Below are positions 9,893 to 46,200 of a stretch of 64,000 nucleotides of DNA, piece by piece. Made by a program: the position numbers and the translations under genes. The notes beneath the pieces are model-generated. The model ran no database searches and was not told the origin of the DNA. It saw only the letters and a program-made list of their open reading frames with translations. Position 1 is the stretch's first letter; each line of letters begins with the position of its first letter. Where the stretch lies: NCBI RefSeq assembly GCF_017939705.1, contig NZ_JAGKSQ010000003.1, positions 124,001-188,000 on the forward strand, given 5' to 3'. This DNA is from Halalkalibacter suaedae. Its GTDB lineage: Bacteria > Bacillota > Bacilli > Bacillales > Bacillaceae_D.

Positions 9893-10306
9893 GCTGGGAC
9901 AAAAGTGATTTAACTAATGGAAAAACCGAACAATGGTGGGTGGCGGACGTAAACCGCTCCTGAAATATACTTCGCTTTCCGCGGGAAGCCGGTGAGCCTC
10001 CTCGTGCTTCGCACTGCGGGGTCTCACCTTTGGCTTTTAGGTGAGGCCACTGAAAAAGTCCCTTTGGGCAGGTGCGAGGAAGCAGCAATGGCTCCACACG
10101 TTGCACGCCTTCTATGAGAAACCCACTCATAGCGGGCTTAAGACAATGCAACGGTTTCGCTCATTGCTTAAAGGCCACTAAAGAAAGGTGAAGATCACAC
10201 CTTTTTCAGTGGCCTCTTTTAGGTCCCGCAGGAGTCTACGTATATTTCCCGCTACGCGATTGCATTATTCGGTATTTTAGTTAAGCACTTTAGTTATGTC
10301 CCCAGC
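9893..10306. repeat. Fold-back (imperfect palindromic) non-coding element
   Basis: About 414 bp with no credible gene. The ends are imperfect inverted repeats: GCTGGGACAAAAGTGATTTA at the left matches, on the opposite strand, GCTGGGGACATAACTAAAGT at the right. Matching blocks continue inward (CCGAACAATG versus CCGAATAATG; CGCTTTCCGCGGGAAG versus GTAGCGGGAAATATA), so a single strand could fold on itself. It includes a hairpin (10172-10215) partly duplicated at 24.6 kb. GC content is above that of its surroundings. Probably a MITE-like or REP-like element of this genus; no transposase is visible. Confidence 0.6.
10172..10215. repeat. AGGCCACT-type hairpin, copy 1
   Basis: Stem AGGCCACT / AGTGGCCT extended by A/T pairs and GGTG/CACC, preceded by CGCTCATTGCTTAA. 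A second copy with the same flank lies at 24616-24658, where the stem is AGGCCAGT / ACTGGCCT: both arms changed together, so pairing is preserved. Confidence 0.75.
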
Positions 10307-10335
10307 CTCAAGAAGTTAATTCCCTTTTCTCCTCT

Positions 10336-10467
10336 ATCAAAGCGGACGGGATGGGAGGGCCGACTCCTGCAGGATGGACGGGCAGGTGGAAATCCACCGG
10401 CAGAGCCGGTTAGTTCCACGCCCACCTGCGGAAAGCGTGCCCCCCATCCCGGTAGCGGTTTCGAAGC
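10336..10467. repeat. Structured 132-bp repeat, copy 1
   Basis: Nearly identical to 24420-24552. Predicted fold: outer stem CGGGATGGG / CCCATCCCG extended by GGGC/GCCC, a middle stem GGGC-AG-GTGGAA / TTCCAC-GCCC, and a terminal hairpin CCGGC-aga-GCCGG. In copy 2 the middle stem is GTTGAA / TTCAAC. GC-rich against an AT-rich background and in an intergenic region. Possible REP-type element or structured RNA. Confidence 0.75.
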
Positions 10468-10490: not shown

Positions 10491-10524
10491 AAAAAAGCTT
10501 GTAGACAAGCTCTGTCAACAAGCT
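10491..10524 (-). terminator. Terminator of the UPF0316 gene
   Basis: Minus-strand stem AGCTTGT / ACAAGCT followed by TTTTTT, 27 bp past the stop of the 10551-11093 gene. Confidence 0.85.
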
Positions 10525-10550
10525 GAGATACTCAAGCATTCAATTTTATC

Positions 10551-14093: not shown

Positions 14094-14122
14094 TACTCCA
14101 TTAGATAAATACATACAAACAA

Positions 14123-14190
14123 TCTCGTATAATCGTGGGGATATGGCCTACAAGTTTCTACCGAACTACCTTAAATGGTTCGACTACGAG
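14123..14190 (+). promoter_or_regulatory. Purine (guanine-class) riboswitch aptamer
   Basis: Signature purine aptamer: P1 strand CTCGTATAAT, GATATGG, AGTTTCTACC, TTAAATGG and 3' P1 strand GACTACGAG. The base equivalent to position 74 of the B. subtilis xpt aptamer (in GACTA) is C, which specifies guanine/hypoxanthine rather than adenine. It sits in the leader of xpt and a purine permease. Confidence 0.95.
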
Positions 14191-14208
14191 TGATGTTTTG
14201 ACGTTCGT

Positions 14209-14284: not shown

Positions 14285-14884
<600 letters not shown>

Positions 14885-16413: not shown

Positions 16414-16421
16414 TTAGAAGA

Positions 16422-16448
16422 GGAACGCCGTGTTGGCGTTCCTTTTTT
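16422..16448 (+). terminator. Terminator of the xpt operon
   Basis: GGAACGCC-gtgtt-GGCGTTCC then TTTTTT. The same 8-bp stem recurs at 18189-18214. Confidence 0.92.
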
Positions 16449-17831: not shown

Positions 17832-18188
17832 TTAAAAGACCTCCTTATAATATTTAATCTACCATAAAAACCCATATCCTTGATAAATTATTCTGTCAGT
17901 TAGTTTAAGTGAATAACTTCACAAGGTTGCATATCTTCATACTAAAATCATACCAGAGAATAACGATTTATTGTTCATATTTTCCACATTTATGTAAAAC
18001 GATATTACGTAGTATCCGTCTAATACGTAAATAAAGACTTTCAAAATTAGTAGAAATGCAATCTTAAATCCCATGTCAGATATGGTAAATTTCAATAGTT
18101 GTATAAGATGTCTCATTCGAAAAATTTGTTCCAACCGCTAGTCCAAAATGCTTTTGAATCATTGCTCTCAAAGTTCTTTCCTAAGCAA
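17832..18188. other. Non-coding interval
   Basis: AT-rich. A minus-strand frame at 17937-18134 encodes a hydrophobic 65-residue peptide from TTG without a ribosome binding site; I do not accept it as a gene. Confidence 0.4.
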
Positions 18189-18214
18189 AAAGGAACGCCA
18201 ATATGGCGTTCCTT
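18189..18214 (-). terminator. Terminator of wrbA
   Basis: AAGGAACGCC-aatat-GGCGTTCCTTTT hairpin 9 bp past the wrbA stop, T-rich on both strands. Same stem as the xpt-operon terminator. Confidence 0.9.
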
Positions 18215-18222
18215 TTCATAAA

Positions 18223-24079: not shown

Positions 24080-24419
24080 TCATTTAAATAATAGAAAATT
24101 CTAATAACGATAGTTGAAGGATCTAAACGCTATATCTGTAATCTAGACCTGTCTCCTTATTTTTTTTCTAGGTTCATGATTCATTTGAGATTAACTACTA
24201 AGATTGTAATAGCACTCTGAACTGAAATTCTTCGGTATACTGAAATGCCTTTTGGTCAAGGTGCTCGTTGGATTTTAAGGTGACTGAATAGGTAGAGGTT
24301 TTGTGATCAGAATCCAATAAAGAAAACTACCTATACTTGACTACTTCTTTTCATCCAAAAAGTATTTAATACCCCTTGATATTCACTGTGAAGAGAAGAA
24401 AAATTCGATCCTACCTATC
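24080..24419. other. Intergenic DNA with a possible coding remnant
   Basis: A minus-strand frame at 24198-24326, open between two stops and lacking a start, reads FSLLDSDHKTSTYSVTLKSN then EHLDQKAFQYTEEFQF. It looks protein-like but I do not recognise it. Otherwise nothing seen. Confidence 0.35.
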
Positions 24420-24552
24420 ATCAAAGCGGACGGGATGGGCGGGCCGACTCCTGCAGGATGGAAAGGGCAGGTTGAAATCCACCGGCTCAGCCGGTTAGTT
24501 CAACGCCCTCCTGCGGAAAGCGTGCCCCCCATCCCGATAGCGCGATCGAAGC
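24420..24552. repeat. Structured ~133-bp repeat, copy 2
   Basis: Second copy of the element at 10336-10467, about 90% identical. Middle stem GTTGAA / TTCAAC versus GTGGAA / TTCCAC in copy 1: a compensatory pair change. Lies between the convergent carotenoid operons. Confidence 0.75.
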
Positions 24553-24615
24553 GACTGTTTACGGCCATTCTCCTTAAATACCAATAACCTGTCGTCCGTC
24601 TCGCTCATTGCTTAA

Positions 24616-24658
24616 AGGCCAGTAAAAAAGATGATAATCACACCTTTTTTACTGGCCT
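24616..24658 (-). terminator. AGGCCAGT-type hairpin, copy 2, terminator of the crtM operon
   Basis: Stem AGGCCAGTAAAAAAG / CTTTTTTACTGGCCT, 7 bp past the crtM stop, ending in A/T-rich DNA. Shares the preceding CGCTCATTGCTTAA with copy 1 at 10172-10215. Confidence 0.7.
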
Positions 24659-43261: not shown

Positions 43262-46200
43262 TTAAGCTGAGTATGATCCTCTCCAGTATCTGTATTGAAC
43301 TGAGTTACCTCCATTAAGATATAGCTGGAAACCCTCAGGTCTTATATCGTTTACTCCATTAGAACCTCCACCACTACCAGAGATAGTTGTTCTGGAGATA
43401 CTTGAAGGGGTATATGTCTTTTTACATCTGAATTGTACGATGACAGCCGCAATTGTTCCTGTTGTGTTGTAAGGCTCAATAGCACCTAGACCGCAAAAGC
43501 CATACTCAGCACCGCTTTTCAATATTTCAGTACCATCGCCAGCTAATGTTCCTCCAGACGTTTCGAGAAAACTACTAGCGTGTTTACCATCTACAGTATC
43601 AGCATCCAACCCACTACCAGAACCATCGTTGGATTGATTCCACACTTTACTACCATTGACCTTTAACTCCTTGTTAAAGTAGAACTCAGGTCTATCGGTA
43701 TAAATATGAGCGTAACTACTATTCATTGGACCTATATCGACATAGCCGTATGCGTTACTATGTCTTAAAGCATATGAAGATGACGATAGTCTTGAAGCAG
43801 TAGACCCAGTGCCTATCAAAGCATCCCCTATTAACTCCGTAACATCAGCATATATCCTCATAGTAGGTAAGTTTGTAAGTGACTCACTATAACCATTATA
43901 AGCTGATTTAGCTATAAAAGCATGTAGTGGTGTAACTACGGTACCGGTTGAATTGACGTTACCATTAGTGCCCATCTTAACCCTACCCAAAACAGGCCCA
44001 CTATCGAGAGTGACTTGGTTACCGCTGGAGCCGCTGTAAATTAACAGGTTATTCGTAGATATAGATCCACTAAAGTTCCCACTTGCGCCATCTAGGTCAC
44101 CTTTTAGAGTGACATTACCGTTACTATCCACAATAAATTGGTTGTTTACGTTGAGTCCGTTAAGAGATTCTATCTGTAAAGCGGTTATGCTGTTCATTAT
44201 CTTAGGGTTTACCATTATGGTTAGACCCTTACTGGTTTCCTTGTATGTGCCTGTTAAACTACTGTCGAATAACGGGTACCAGTTAGTGCCATCTTCTGAC
44301 ACTTCTAATCTGGTTTTATAGTATGTTCTACTATCACCATAGTAATGCCATACTTGGATATAATCTATATCTTCGTATACTGCTCCCAGATCGACTCTAA
44401 CCCAAGCGTGACCCGTAGGTCCATTATAGTAATAATTTGTGTTTATGTTTCCGTCGGTGATAACGCTTGAAGTAGTCCCAACGCTGCTAACCACGCCTTT
44501 ACCTAAAGCACGATTAGTTGAACCAGATATCGCTTGAATCTCAACCCAATGATTTCCCCCGTTAGAGGTGCTCCCATCAAGCCAATCTCTTATATATCTG
44601 ATTTTTCTAACAGCATTTACAAACCCATCCCTACCAGGAGGACCGACATCACCCATAGGACCTTTCTCTCCCGTATATCCTCTTGGTCCAGTAGGACCTG
44701 TAGAGCCTTGTGGTCCTTGAGGACCTGTGTTACCAGTGTCACCCTTATCTCCTTTGATCAACACCCAAGTATACTTAGATGGATCGGTACTATCAGCTGA
44801 TACATAGTCCGTATACGTACCAATATACGTCTTCCCAGTAGCAACTGTCGTACTAAATCCACTAGTTCCTGTAGAGTTTGTAGCCCATGCCGTATGGAAA
44901 TATGGAGTCTGTCCATCAGTACCTTTGGGTCCTTGAATACCCTGATCCCCATCAGCGCCTTTTATCAAACTCCACGCATAACTAGTATAGCTCGTACTAT
45001 CAGTAGCTGTGTTGTCGACATACATACCGATATAGGTTGCCGAAGCGAAATGACTTGTTGAGAAGTTCTGACCCGTACTCCCAGTTGCATACGCAATATG
45101 AGTGTAGCTATGCAACCCATCAGCACCCTTAGGACCTTGGATACCTTGGTCACCCTGAGGTCCTTGTATACCTTGAAGTCCTTGTGGACCTGTATTACCG
45201 GTATCACCTTTGTCTCCCTTTTCACCTTTAATCAGAGTCCATGTATATTTAGTTGGGTCGGTACTATCAGCAGATGTAAAATCTGTGTACGTACCAATAT
45301 GAGTCTTACCGGTTGAGTCAGTTGTACTGAATCCACTTGTACCAGTACTATTAGTAGCCCAGGCGGTATGGAAATATGGAGTTAGACCATCCGCACCTTT
45401 AGGTCCTTGTATACCTTGTGAACCATCAGCACCCTTTATAAGATTCCATGCATACTTGGTGTGATCTGTACTATCTGCTGATGTGTTATCAACATACATA
45501 CCAATGTATGTGGCAGAACTAAAATGGCTTGTAGAGAAATTCTGACCTGTAGTTCCTGTGGCGTAAGCTATGTGGGTGTAGCTGTTCAAGCCATCGGCAC
45601 CCTTGGGACCTTGTATACCTTGATCGCCTTCTGGTCCTTGTATACCTTGTAAACCCTGAGGACCTTGTTCACCGGTGTCCCCTTTATCTCCCTTCTCACC
45701 TTTAATCAGAACCCAAGCATACTTAGTCGGGTCTGTACTATCGGCGGAGTTAAAATCGGTATACGTACCAATATGTGTCTTACCAGATGACACTGTAGTG
45801 CTAAATCCGCTAGTACCTGTGCTATTAGTAGCCCATGCAGTATGAAAATATGGAGTTCTACCATCAGTACCCGCTGGTCCTTGAATACCCTGAGCTCCAT
45901 CGGCTCCCTTTATAAGTGTCCAGTTATAATCACTAGGGTTTGTGCTATCATTTTGACTATTATCGACATACATACCTATATGTGTTTTACCAACCGAATC
46001 ACTAACTGAAAATCCGCTTGTTCCTGCTGAATTGGTAGCATATGCTATGTGAGTATAACTGTGTAAACCGTCAGCACCTTTAGGTCCTTGGATACCTTGA
46101 TCACCTTCTGGTCCTTGGATACCTTGAAGTCCTTGTGGACCTTGTTCACCTCTATCTCCCTTAGGTCCCTGGAATAGAGCCCATACATAATCAGATGGAT

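Follow-up and report, generated by a model that had tools for sequence, protein, structure and literature searches.

A repeat that occurs twice in the window (the whole 64,000-nucleotide stretch of Halalkalibacter suaedae DNA analysed here) raises the question of what keeps the arms of a dispersed hairpin paired while its letters change: host use of a folded RNA, or pairing of a DNA that moves. The first-pass annotation had placed copies at 10336-10467 and 24420-24552; coordinates and strand were borne out, and the two copies, on the same strand, are 91% identical over positions 7-138 of the query.

10336 to 10467, + strand: hairpin copy 1, family A (159.4 bits to model R1)
10362 to 10367, + strand: GACTCC, 5' half of the conserved internal loop, copy 1 (window sequence)
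10430 to 10436, + strand: GGAAAGC, 3' half of the conserved internal loop, copy 1 (window sequence)
24420 to 24552, + strand: hairpin copy 2, family A (154.5 bits to model R1)
24446 to 24451, + strand: GACTCC, copy 2 (window sequence)
24515 to 24521, + strand: GGAAAGC, copy 2 (window sequence)

Each copy folds into one long imperfect hairpin of about 125 nt (copy 1, -71.8 kcal/mol, z -4.4; copy 2, -70.2 kcal/mol, z -4.9), with 0 of 200 shuffles folding as well in either case, and each (L001 and L030) lies between convergent genes. In the H. suaedae genome, we scored at least 40 copies from 99 first-look candidates. Further, 10 of the 13 genomes of the genus, H. suaedae included, carry copies, their number ranging from a few to dozens, which shows that the repeat is genuine and is neither an assembly artefact nor confined to assembly repeats. 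A pattern scan of named genomes returned at least 57 stretches, mostly from Halalkalibacter species but also from Alkalihalobacillus, Alkalicoccobacillus, and Bacillus sp. JCM 19034 and 19041. Copy 1, used as a query against phage and plasmid collections, gave no match. The earlier suggestion that the repeat is possibly not described has held up so far: a search of Rfam at the gathering threshold and at E values up to 5 returned no match over a curated threshold and nothing credible below it (the lowest E value, 0.0087, was to a microRNA family on a neighbouring element at 10170-10217 and lay far below the threshold of that family), and a literature search that included core sequence strings yielded, among the matches listed, no paper describing the hairpin or its superfamily.

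We measured covariation by pair counts, with shuffle and slide controls, in a within-family alignment of 55 copies from 10 genomes (H. suaedae and nine others of the genus). The compensatory change reported between the window copies (GTGGAA/TTCCAC to GTTGAA/TTCAAC) is real, as the pair concerned is intact in all 55 copies (U-A in 33, G-C in 22). In 3 copies, A-U replaces G-C at a second pair, and in 1 copy U-A replaces C-G at a third. Cells changed on both sides numbered 26 against a shuffled mean of 9.0 (0 of 500 shuffles as high), and pairs with both-sided change numbered 3 against 1.2 (6 of 500); when the partner was slid by 1-3 columns, at most 1 was left. The number of further pair types (12 compared with 11.2 in shuffles; 89 of 500) was not beyond chance. 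Covariation support inside family A is, at 3 of 40 pairs, modest. It is stronger across the wider superfamily, which we found as weaker model matches and which consists of hairpins with unlike stems and a common internal loop, GACTCC / GGAAAGC. We drew 36 sequence clusters from 203 distinct instances, at least five of them belonging to family A and set apart from one another by small insertions, and one (L337) apparently a chance match. The outer arms of these 36 clusters average 34% identity, and yet they pair at -20.7 kcal/mol with their own partner compared with -9.4 kcal/mol when swapped, the own arms doing better than 95% of swaps in 28 of the 36; for the inner 14 nt, the difference is smaller (-11.4 own compared with -9.3 swapped). 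The earlier observation that CCGGC/GCCGG stays constant while the loops change applies to most copies, the exception being L027, which has CTGGC/GCCAG. These results support a force that maintains pairing, which was one part of the original proposal of selection for a functional RNA or cruciform; the other part, a functional RNA at the two window loci, is not supported, and covariation beyond the controls is equally compatible with pairing of DNA.

The carrier of the hairpin is seen in full in Halalkalibacter urbisdiaboli (L085), where it forms part of an IS1182-family insertion sequence and is located between the start of the transposase gene and the end of the element. This unit is 1.43 kb long and is flanked by 30-bp direct repeats that are a duplicated palindrome; its transposase scores 337 bits against the IS1182 family model (NF033551; cut-off 270), and the gene holds a scaffold gap of 10 N. 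The unit opens with an inverted repeat of the CAGACTGTAGACAAA / CAGCCTGTCGACAAA type and, after a short spacer, the large hairpin; next come a promoter-like stretch and the transposase gene, and a terminator-like hairpin precedes the inverted repeat at the opposite end. Many copies are embedded in a palindrome that can itself form a hairpin and is present in duplicate, once on each side. The full-length element has a single promoter-like site, located between hairpin and transposase gene, a number within chance (1 compared with 1.8 in shuffles). Ten further loci of H. urbisdiaboli match the L085 unit (84-100% over more than 400 bp), and transposase matches were obtained at 33 collected loci, some of which cover one same place. 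In H. suaedae, a search at E values up to 1e-5 found a single transposase remnant, which adjoins a hairpin and scores 90 bits, below the family cut-off, compared with the at least 40 hairpins of this genome.

We found both ends of 24 family A units, including L004, L013, and L018 of H. suaedae, and the ends are as in the full-length element. Direct repeats of at least 12 bases flank 14 of the 24 (the chance maximum, from shuffled flanks, is 10), and in 10 of those 14, of which 6 are from H. urbisdiaboli, the repeat folds into a hairpin; the other 10 of the 24 have no direct repeat beyond chance, which counts against the IS1182 reading. Clear examples with target repeats in H. suaedae are L013 (415 bp) and L018 (460 bp). 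A search for the right end in this genome gave 11 sites, all of them beside a family A hairpin (full in 8, 109 nt long in 1, and partial in 2). Outside family A, both unit ends were traced for just ten hairpin-bearing copies, the intact ones of G275 and G219, which represent two other families; all ten are flanked by direct repeats, palindromic as exact repeats in 8. Target duplication, reported at palindromic sites for some IS1182 members, was seen in these ten and in the 14 family A units, with palindromic repeats in 8 and 10 of them, respectively. In the window, we recognized the following parts of such units.

10319 to 10335, + strand: conserved flank of the IS1182-type unit, copy 1 side (alignment to L085 and to L013 of the same genome)
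10497 to 10525, - strand: transposase-proximal end of the IS1182-type unit with inverted repeat CAGCTTGTTGACAGAG..., copy 1
24299 to 24419, + strand: left part of a larger unit (about 24299-24605), copy 2 (88% to C27:25574-25876)
24586 to 24605, - strand: transposase-proximal end, incomplete, copy 2 (against L007 and L012 of the same genome)
9953 to 10262, outer limits approximate, - strand: hairpin member of the sister family B3 (window sequence)

Both window copies are truncated, and the only unit end that remains is the transposase-proximal one. Beyond 10319-10335, the remainder of that side of the copy 1 unit is absent, and a second repeat unit, of family B3, is found there instead. At copy 2, which lies in a larger unit common to a sub-group of H. 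suaedae copies, the transposase-proximal end is cut off by another repeat. Overall, we conclude that an IS1182-family insertion sequence, and the transposase-less units derived from it, carry the repeat as their internal hairpin, and that this hairpin lies inside the moving unit, is kept after loss of the gene, and covaries in its pairing. Judged from their ends and flanks, the H. suaedae copies are apparently non-autonomous IS1182-family derivatives. The repeat is a feature of mobile DNA rather than a demonstrated regulatory RNA.

We note several other elements in the window. The B3 member, whose loop halves are GCTTTCC (9974-9980) and GGAGTC (10231-10236) and whose type of unit is also present in G109, is interrupted inside its loop by a 174-bp element (10043-10216) whose inverted ends measure 16 bp (GAGGCCACTGAAAAAG) and which is flanked by direct repeats of 8 bp (TTTTAGGT, 10035-10042 and 10217-10224); a piece related to this element lies beside copy 2 at 24598-24629. 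A purine riboswitch (Rfam RF00167, 85.9 bits) is found at 14105-14206, upstream of the ORF at 14291-14884, which we take to encode a xanthine phosphoribosyltransferase. Further, three direct-repeat copies, 474-477 bases apart and 74-79% identical, occur at 44706-46170, and inverted repeats of 31 nt that are 90% complementary lie 1.7 kb apart at 16417-16447 and 18187-18217.

The superfamily reaches well beyond the genus. Of 299 genomes of the order, 185 matched a strict pattern for it, as did 82 of 116 genera, and the same pattern read backwards as a control gave 0 in every row; H. suaedae has 147 strict-pattern matches, the form of the pattern also fitting family A. Both loop halves are exact in 19 of the 27 other-family model matches listed, the remainder differing mostly on the 3' side. 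Single matches occur in 16 viral contigs, and relatives lie on plasmids of Priestia, Peribacillus, Niallia, and others. The nine copies aligned from one genome all share a unit of roughly 300 bp whose 40-bp inverted ends, of the GAGGCTGGGACA type, differ from those of family A and are seen also in some IS1182 elements; in G209 and G268, the limits of the hairpin-carrying unit were sought and not found. Among the 299 genomes, an IS1182 transposase is present in 11 of the 38 with at least 40 copies compared with 60 of the 114 with none, and its presence falls slightly with hairpin number (rank test p 0.025). As the presence of an IS1182 transposase does not increase with the number of hairpins, spread of the whole superfamily by IS1182 cannot be demonstrated, and we rejected it as carrier of the entire superfamily. 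In Halalkalibacter wakoensis (L106, L119, L129, L135, and L137), family B2 units terminate in a sequence resembling AGGCCACTGAAAAAGTGC (degenerate in some units), next to which stand CCTCTATT or AAATAGAGG, the bases of the family B1 hairpin loop, an arrangement that resembles the insertion of one hairpin unit into another.

How the hairpin came to lie inside IS1182 elements can be approached by comparing elements with and without it. The motif hairpin was found at 6 of 29 IS1182 loci of the order, in every case antisense and 87-219 bases upstream of the transposase match, one of the six having a further hairpin downstream in the opposite direction. When loci were fetched from these six genomes, which had been chosen because one copy had shown the hairpin, it was upstream in 15 of 15. 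In sister IS1182 elements that have no hairpin (L293, L296, and L299), the end runs straight into the promoter-like stretch; at L288, the hairpin is behind this stretch and not before it, which counts against the arrangement. Compared with the hairpin-less L154, L085 retains a fossil IS end between hairpin and gene (score 24; shuffle maximum 15), as do L376 (score 22; maximum 16) and L378 (score 29; maximum 18), with 0 of 500 shuffles as good in each case; for L371, 24 of 500 shuffles did as well, and no clear fossil end was recognized. We mapped the hairpin on a quick, long-branched tree of 44 transposase rows, 10 of which have it. Seven changes are needed, at least 6 of them forced by starred branches, and the trait is somewhat clustered, as few changes being enough in 31 of 500 shuffles. 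Because a decayed second, old IS end lies behind the hairpin in two lineages, the most economical reading is capture of the hairpin between a pair of IS1182 ends on two or more occasions, and the hairpin looks like a module captured by IS1182 elements more than once.

These observations suggest how the repeat may have spread. The palindrome preference of an IS1182-type element would make large dispersed hairpins natural landing sites, and landing beside a hairpin would make its capture likely. Once captured, the hairpin would be copied with every unit, even after loss of the transposase gene, so that pairing would be kept at the level of the propagating DNA and not by host use at each site; the benefit might be a folded DNA site in transposition or a barrier to read-through. 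We consider it probable that the repeat is, as a whole, such an IS1182-internal hairpin, captured between IS ends and propagated with the units, its pairing kept on propagating DNA. The findings agree better with a DNA hairpin or cruciform that acts for the mobile element than with a functional RNA. We are more tentative about extending this to the superfamily: the GACTCC / GGAAAGC hairpin is possibly, though rather doubtfully, an independent structured module that spreads as a preferred landing site and is captured and carried by palindrome-seeking transposons.

Several other explanations have to be weighed against this one. If copies were transcribed and acted as functional RNA or host cis-regulatory elements, the fold regulating neighbouring genes (e.g. 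as a 3' end or attenuator), one would expect the long fold with compensatory changes and an internal loop kept across families, and the sites in H. suaedae would agree, since 19 of 29 classified copies lie between convergent genes and 0 between divergent ones. However, this convergent bias is absent from other genomes (24 classified copies: 6 convergent, 16 tandem, and 2 divergent), and insertion into terminator-like palindromes would by itself account for it. In two strains of H. oceani, four orthologous pairs were compared, and in all four the hairpins resemble each other more than do their flanks (clearly in two and marginally in two), which would be in keeping with a host use as well; some stem positions in these pairs are broken. 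Empty sites were also sought: the four H. oceani pairs were all occupied, and in the genus the flanking genes were just 64-69% identical, the relatives being too distant. A copy number of 0 to dozens within one genus and membership of mobile units with palindromic target repeats further argue against a host role. Selection on an RNA strand should tolerate G-U and not A-C; in 95 distinct copies, G-T variants (54 cells) and A-C variants (48 cells) are balanced and so give no pointer to selection on one RNA strand. A host RNA is therefore, in our judgement, improbable. A similar standing is held by the proposal that a single-strand (HUH, Y1) transposase of the RAYT kind moves the hairpin as a REP-like element. 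It is a dispersed extragenic palindrome, a Y1 gene is present in 20 of 22 genomes with at least 60 copies compared with 75 of 114 with none (rank test of Y1 against hairpin number, p 0.03; any-versus-none, p 0.09), and 25 of 30 compared Y1 proteins, that of H. suaedae included, link into one cluster; the genomes in the rank test are, however, not independent. All 16 hairpin-rich genomes searched have one to five Y1-type genes (L341-L370), some with common neighbours. No hairpin lies within 1.5 kb of any of 30 Y1 loci from these high-copy genomes (30 of 35 matches), and the only Y1 gene of H. suaedae (L031, G000:C11:821330-821662) is flanked by a different, inverted repeat, GGGACGGTTCTC, which may be its own REP-like partner. 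We rejected REP/RAYT membership on this absence of the repeat from the flanks of Y1 genes; the IS1182-type ends and long target duplications of family A units are likewise not expected of a REP, and we hold this origin to be improbable.

The hairpin could also serve the element itself as a barrier between IS end and transposase promoter, blocking transcription from outside. Its similar antisense position upstream of the gene in all six hairpin-bearing loci of the order would suit this role, insertion at terminator-like sites would expose the element to read-through, and the family A stem is followed, in the direction of the gene, by GCTTT(TTT). Sister elements manage without a hairpin, though, gene-less copies retain it, and families B1-B3 have, among the matches listed, no comparable T run after the stem, making this role unlikely. 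Finally, pairing may be kept with no selection at all. Long quasi-palindromes are corrected against their own other arm, so that templated repair of imperfect palindromes could change both arms together while recent spread keeps copies alike; the few independent double changes in family A (3 pairs of 40) are in line with this. Against it, the mismatched loop has remained uncorrected in the 19 of 27 listed model matches with exact halves, despite their differing stems (the 36 clusters, having been chosen by the loop letters, were left out of this judgement), and in L165 the loop-closing pair itself is changed on both sides. Because the mismatched loop is kept, templated repair is unlikely as the only cause of the covariation, and we give this explanation a low probability. 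The IS1182-internal hairpin, captured and propagated with its units, is the reading we retain.

With this reading, compensatory changes that would pass for those of a regulatory RNA have an explanation in mobile DNA, and Bacillus relatives harbour a very common repeat superfamily for which we found no name. The finding has a bearing on annotation, as covariation tools may call the hairpin an RNA and a "hypothetical protein" is annotated under a relative of it in 2 of 8 plasmid records. If capture through target choice is true, it would offer a testable route by which insertion sequences acquire non-coding passengers, paralleling the gene capture reported for IS1272 in the available part of PMC4923244; and if the landing-site proposal is true, the module would be a mobile passenger whose sole fitness trait is its fold.

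Among known systems, REPs with a GTAG or CGTC tag are palindromes of 20-40 bp carrying this tetranucleotide, as defined in the accessible portion of PMC3733652; our hairpin is, like them, dispersed, intergenic, and palindromic, but at about 125 nt it falls outside that definition and is absent beside the Y1 gene in 30 of 30 loci. Stem-loop families are also described for Bacillus halodurans and Bacillus anthracis (Bhal-1/2, Bant-1, and bcr1; Bhal-1 is 74 bp long with 36 copies) and are, like ours, intergenic repeats of Bacillus relatives; Bhal-1 was compared by description and not by sequence, and no mobile unit is given for it in the available text of PMC2267715. The IS1182-derived MITEs of Methanosarcina acetivorans (160 and 169 bp, with direct repeats of apparently 4 and 0 bp, according to the accessible sections of PMC3852290) are likewise short units with IS1182-type ends and no transposase, whereas the H. 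suaedae units with target repeats are 415-460 bp long and contain a structured hairpin module. A further known system is that of IS1272 and TnSha1 of the IS1182 family, which, in the available part of PMC4923244, insert into hairpin and terminator structures, TnSha1 having taken up a passenger gene flanked by the IS and, on the other side, by IRL', a diverged second end. The transposase family, the hairpin or terminator targets, and a passenger beside a second diverged end are shared with our elements. IS1272 is reported to remove part of the target palindrome without making a duplication, unlike the units described here, in which the palindrome is duplicated (12-34 bp), as at the palindromic sites of some IS1182 members in a review cited in the same source; and the passenger is, in contrast to that of TnSha1, a non-coding hairpin and not a gene.
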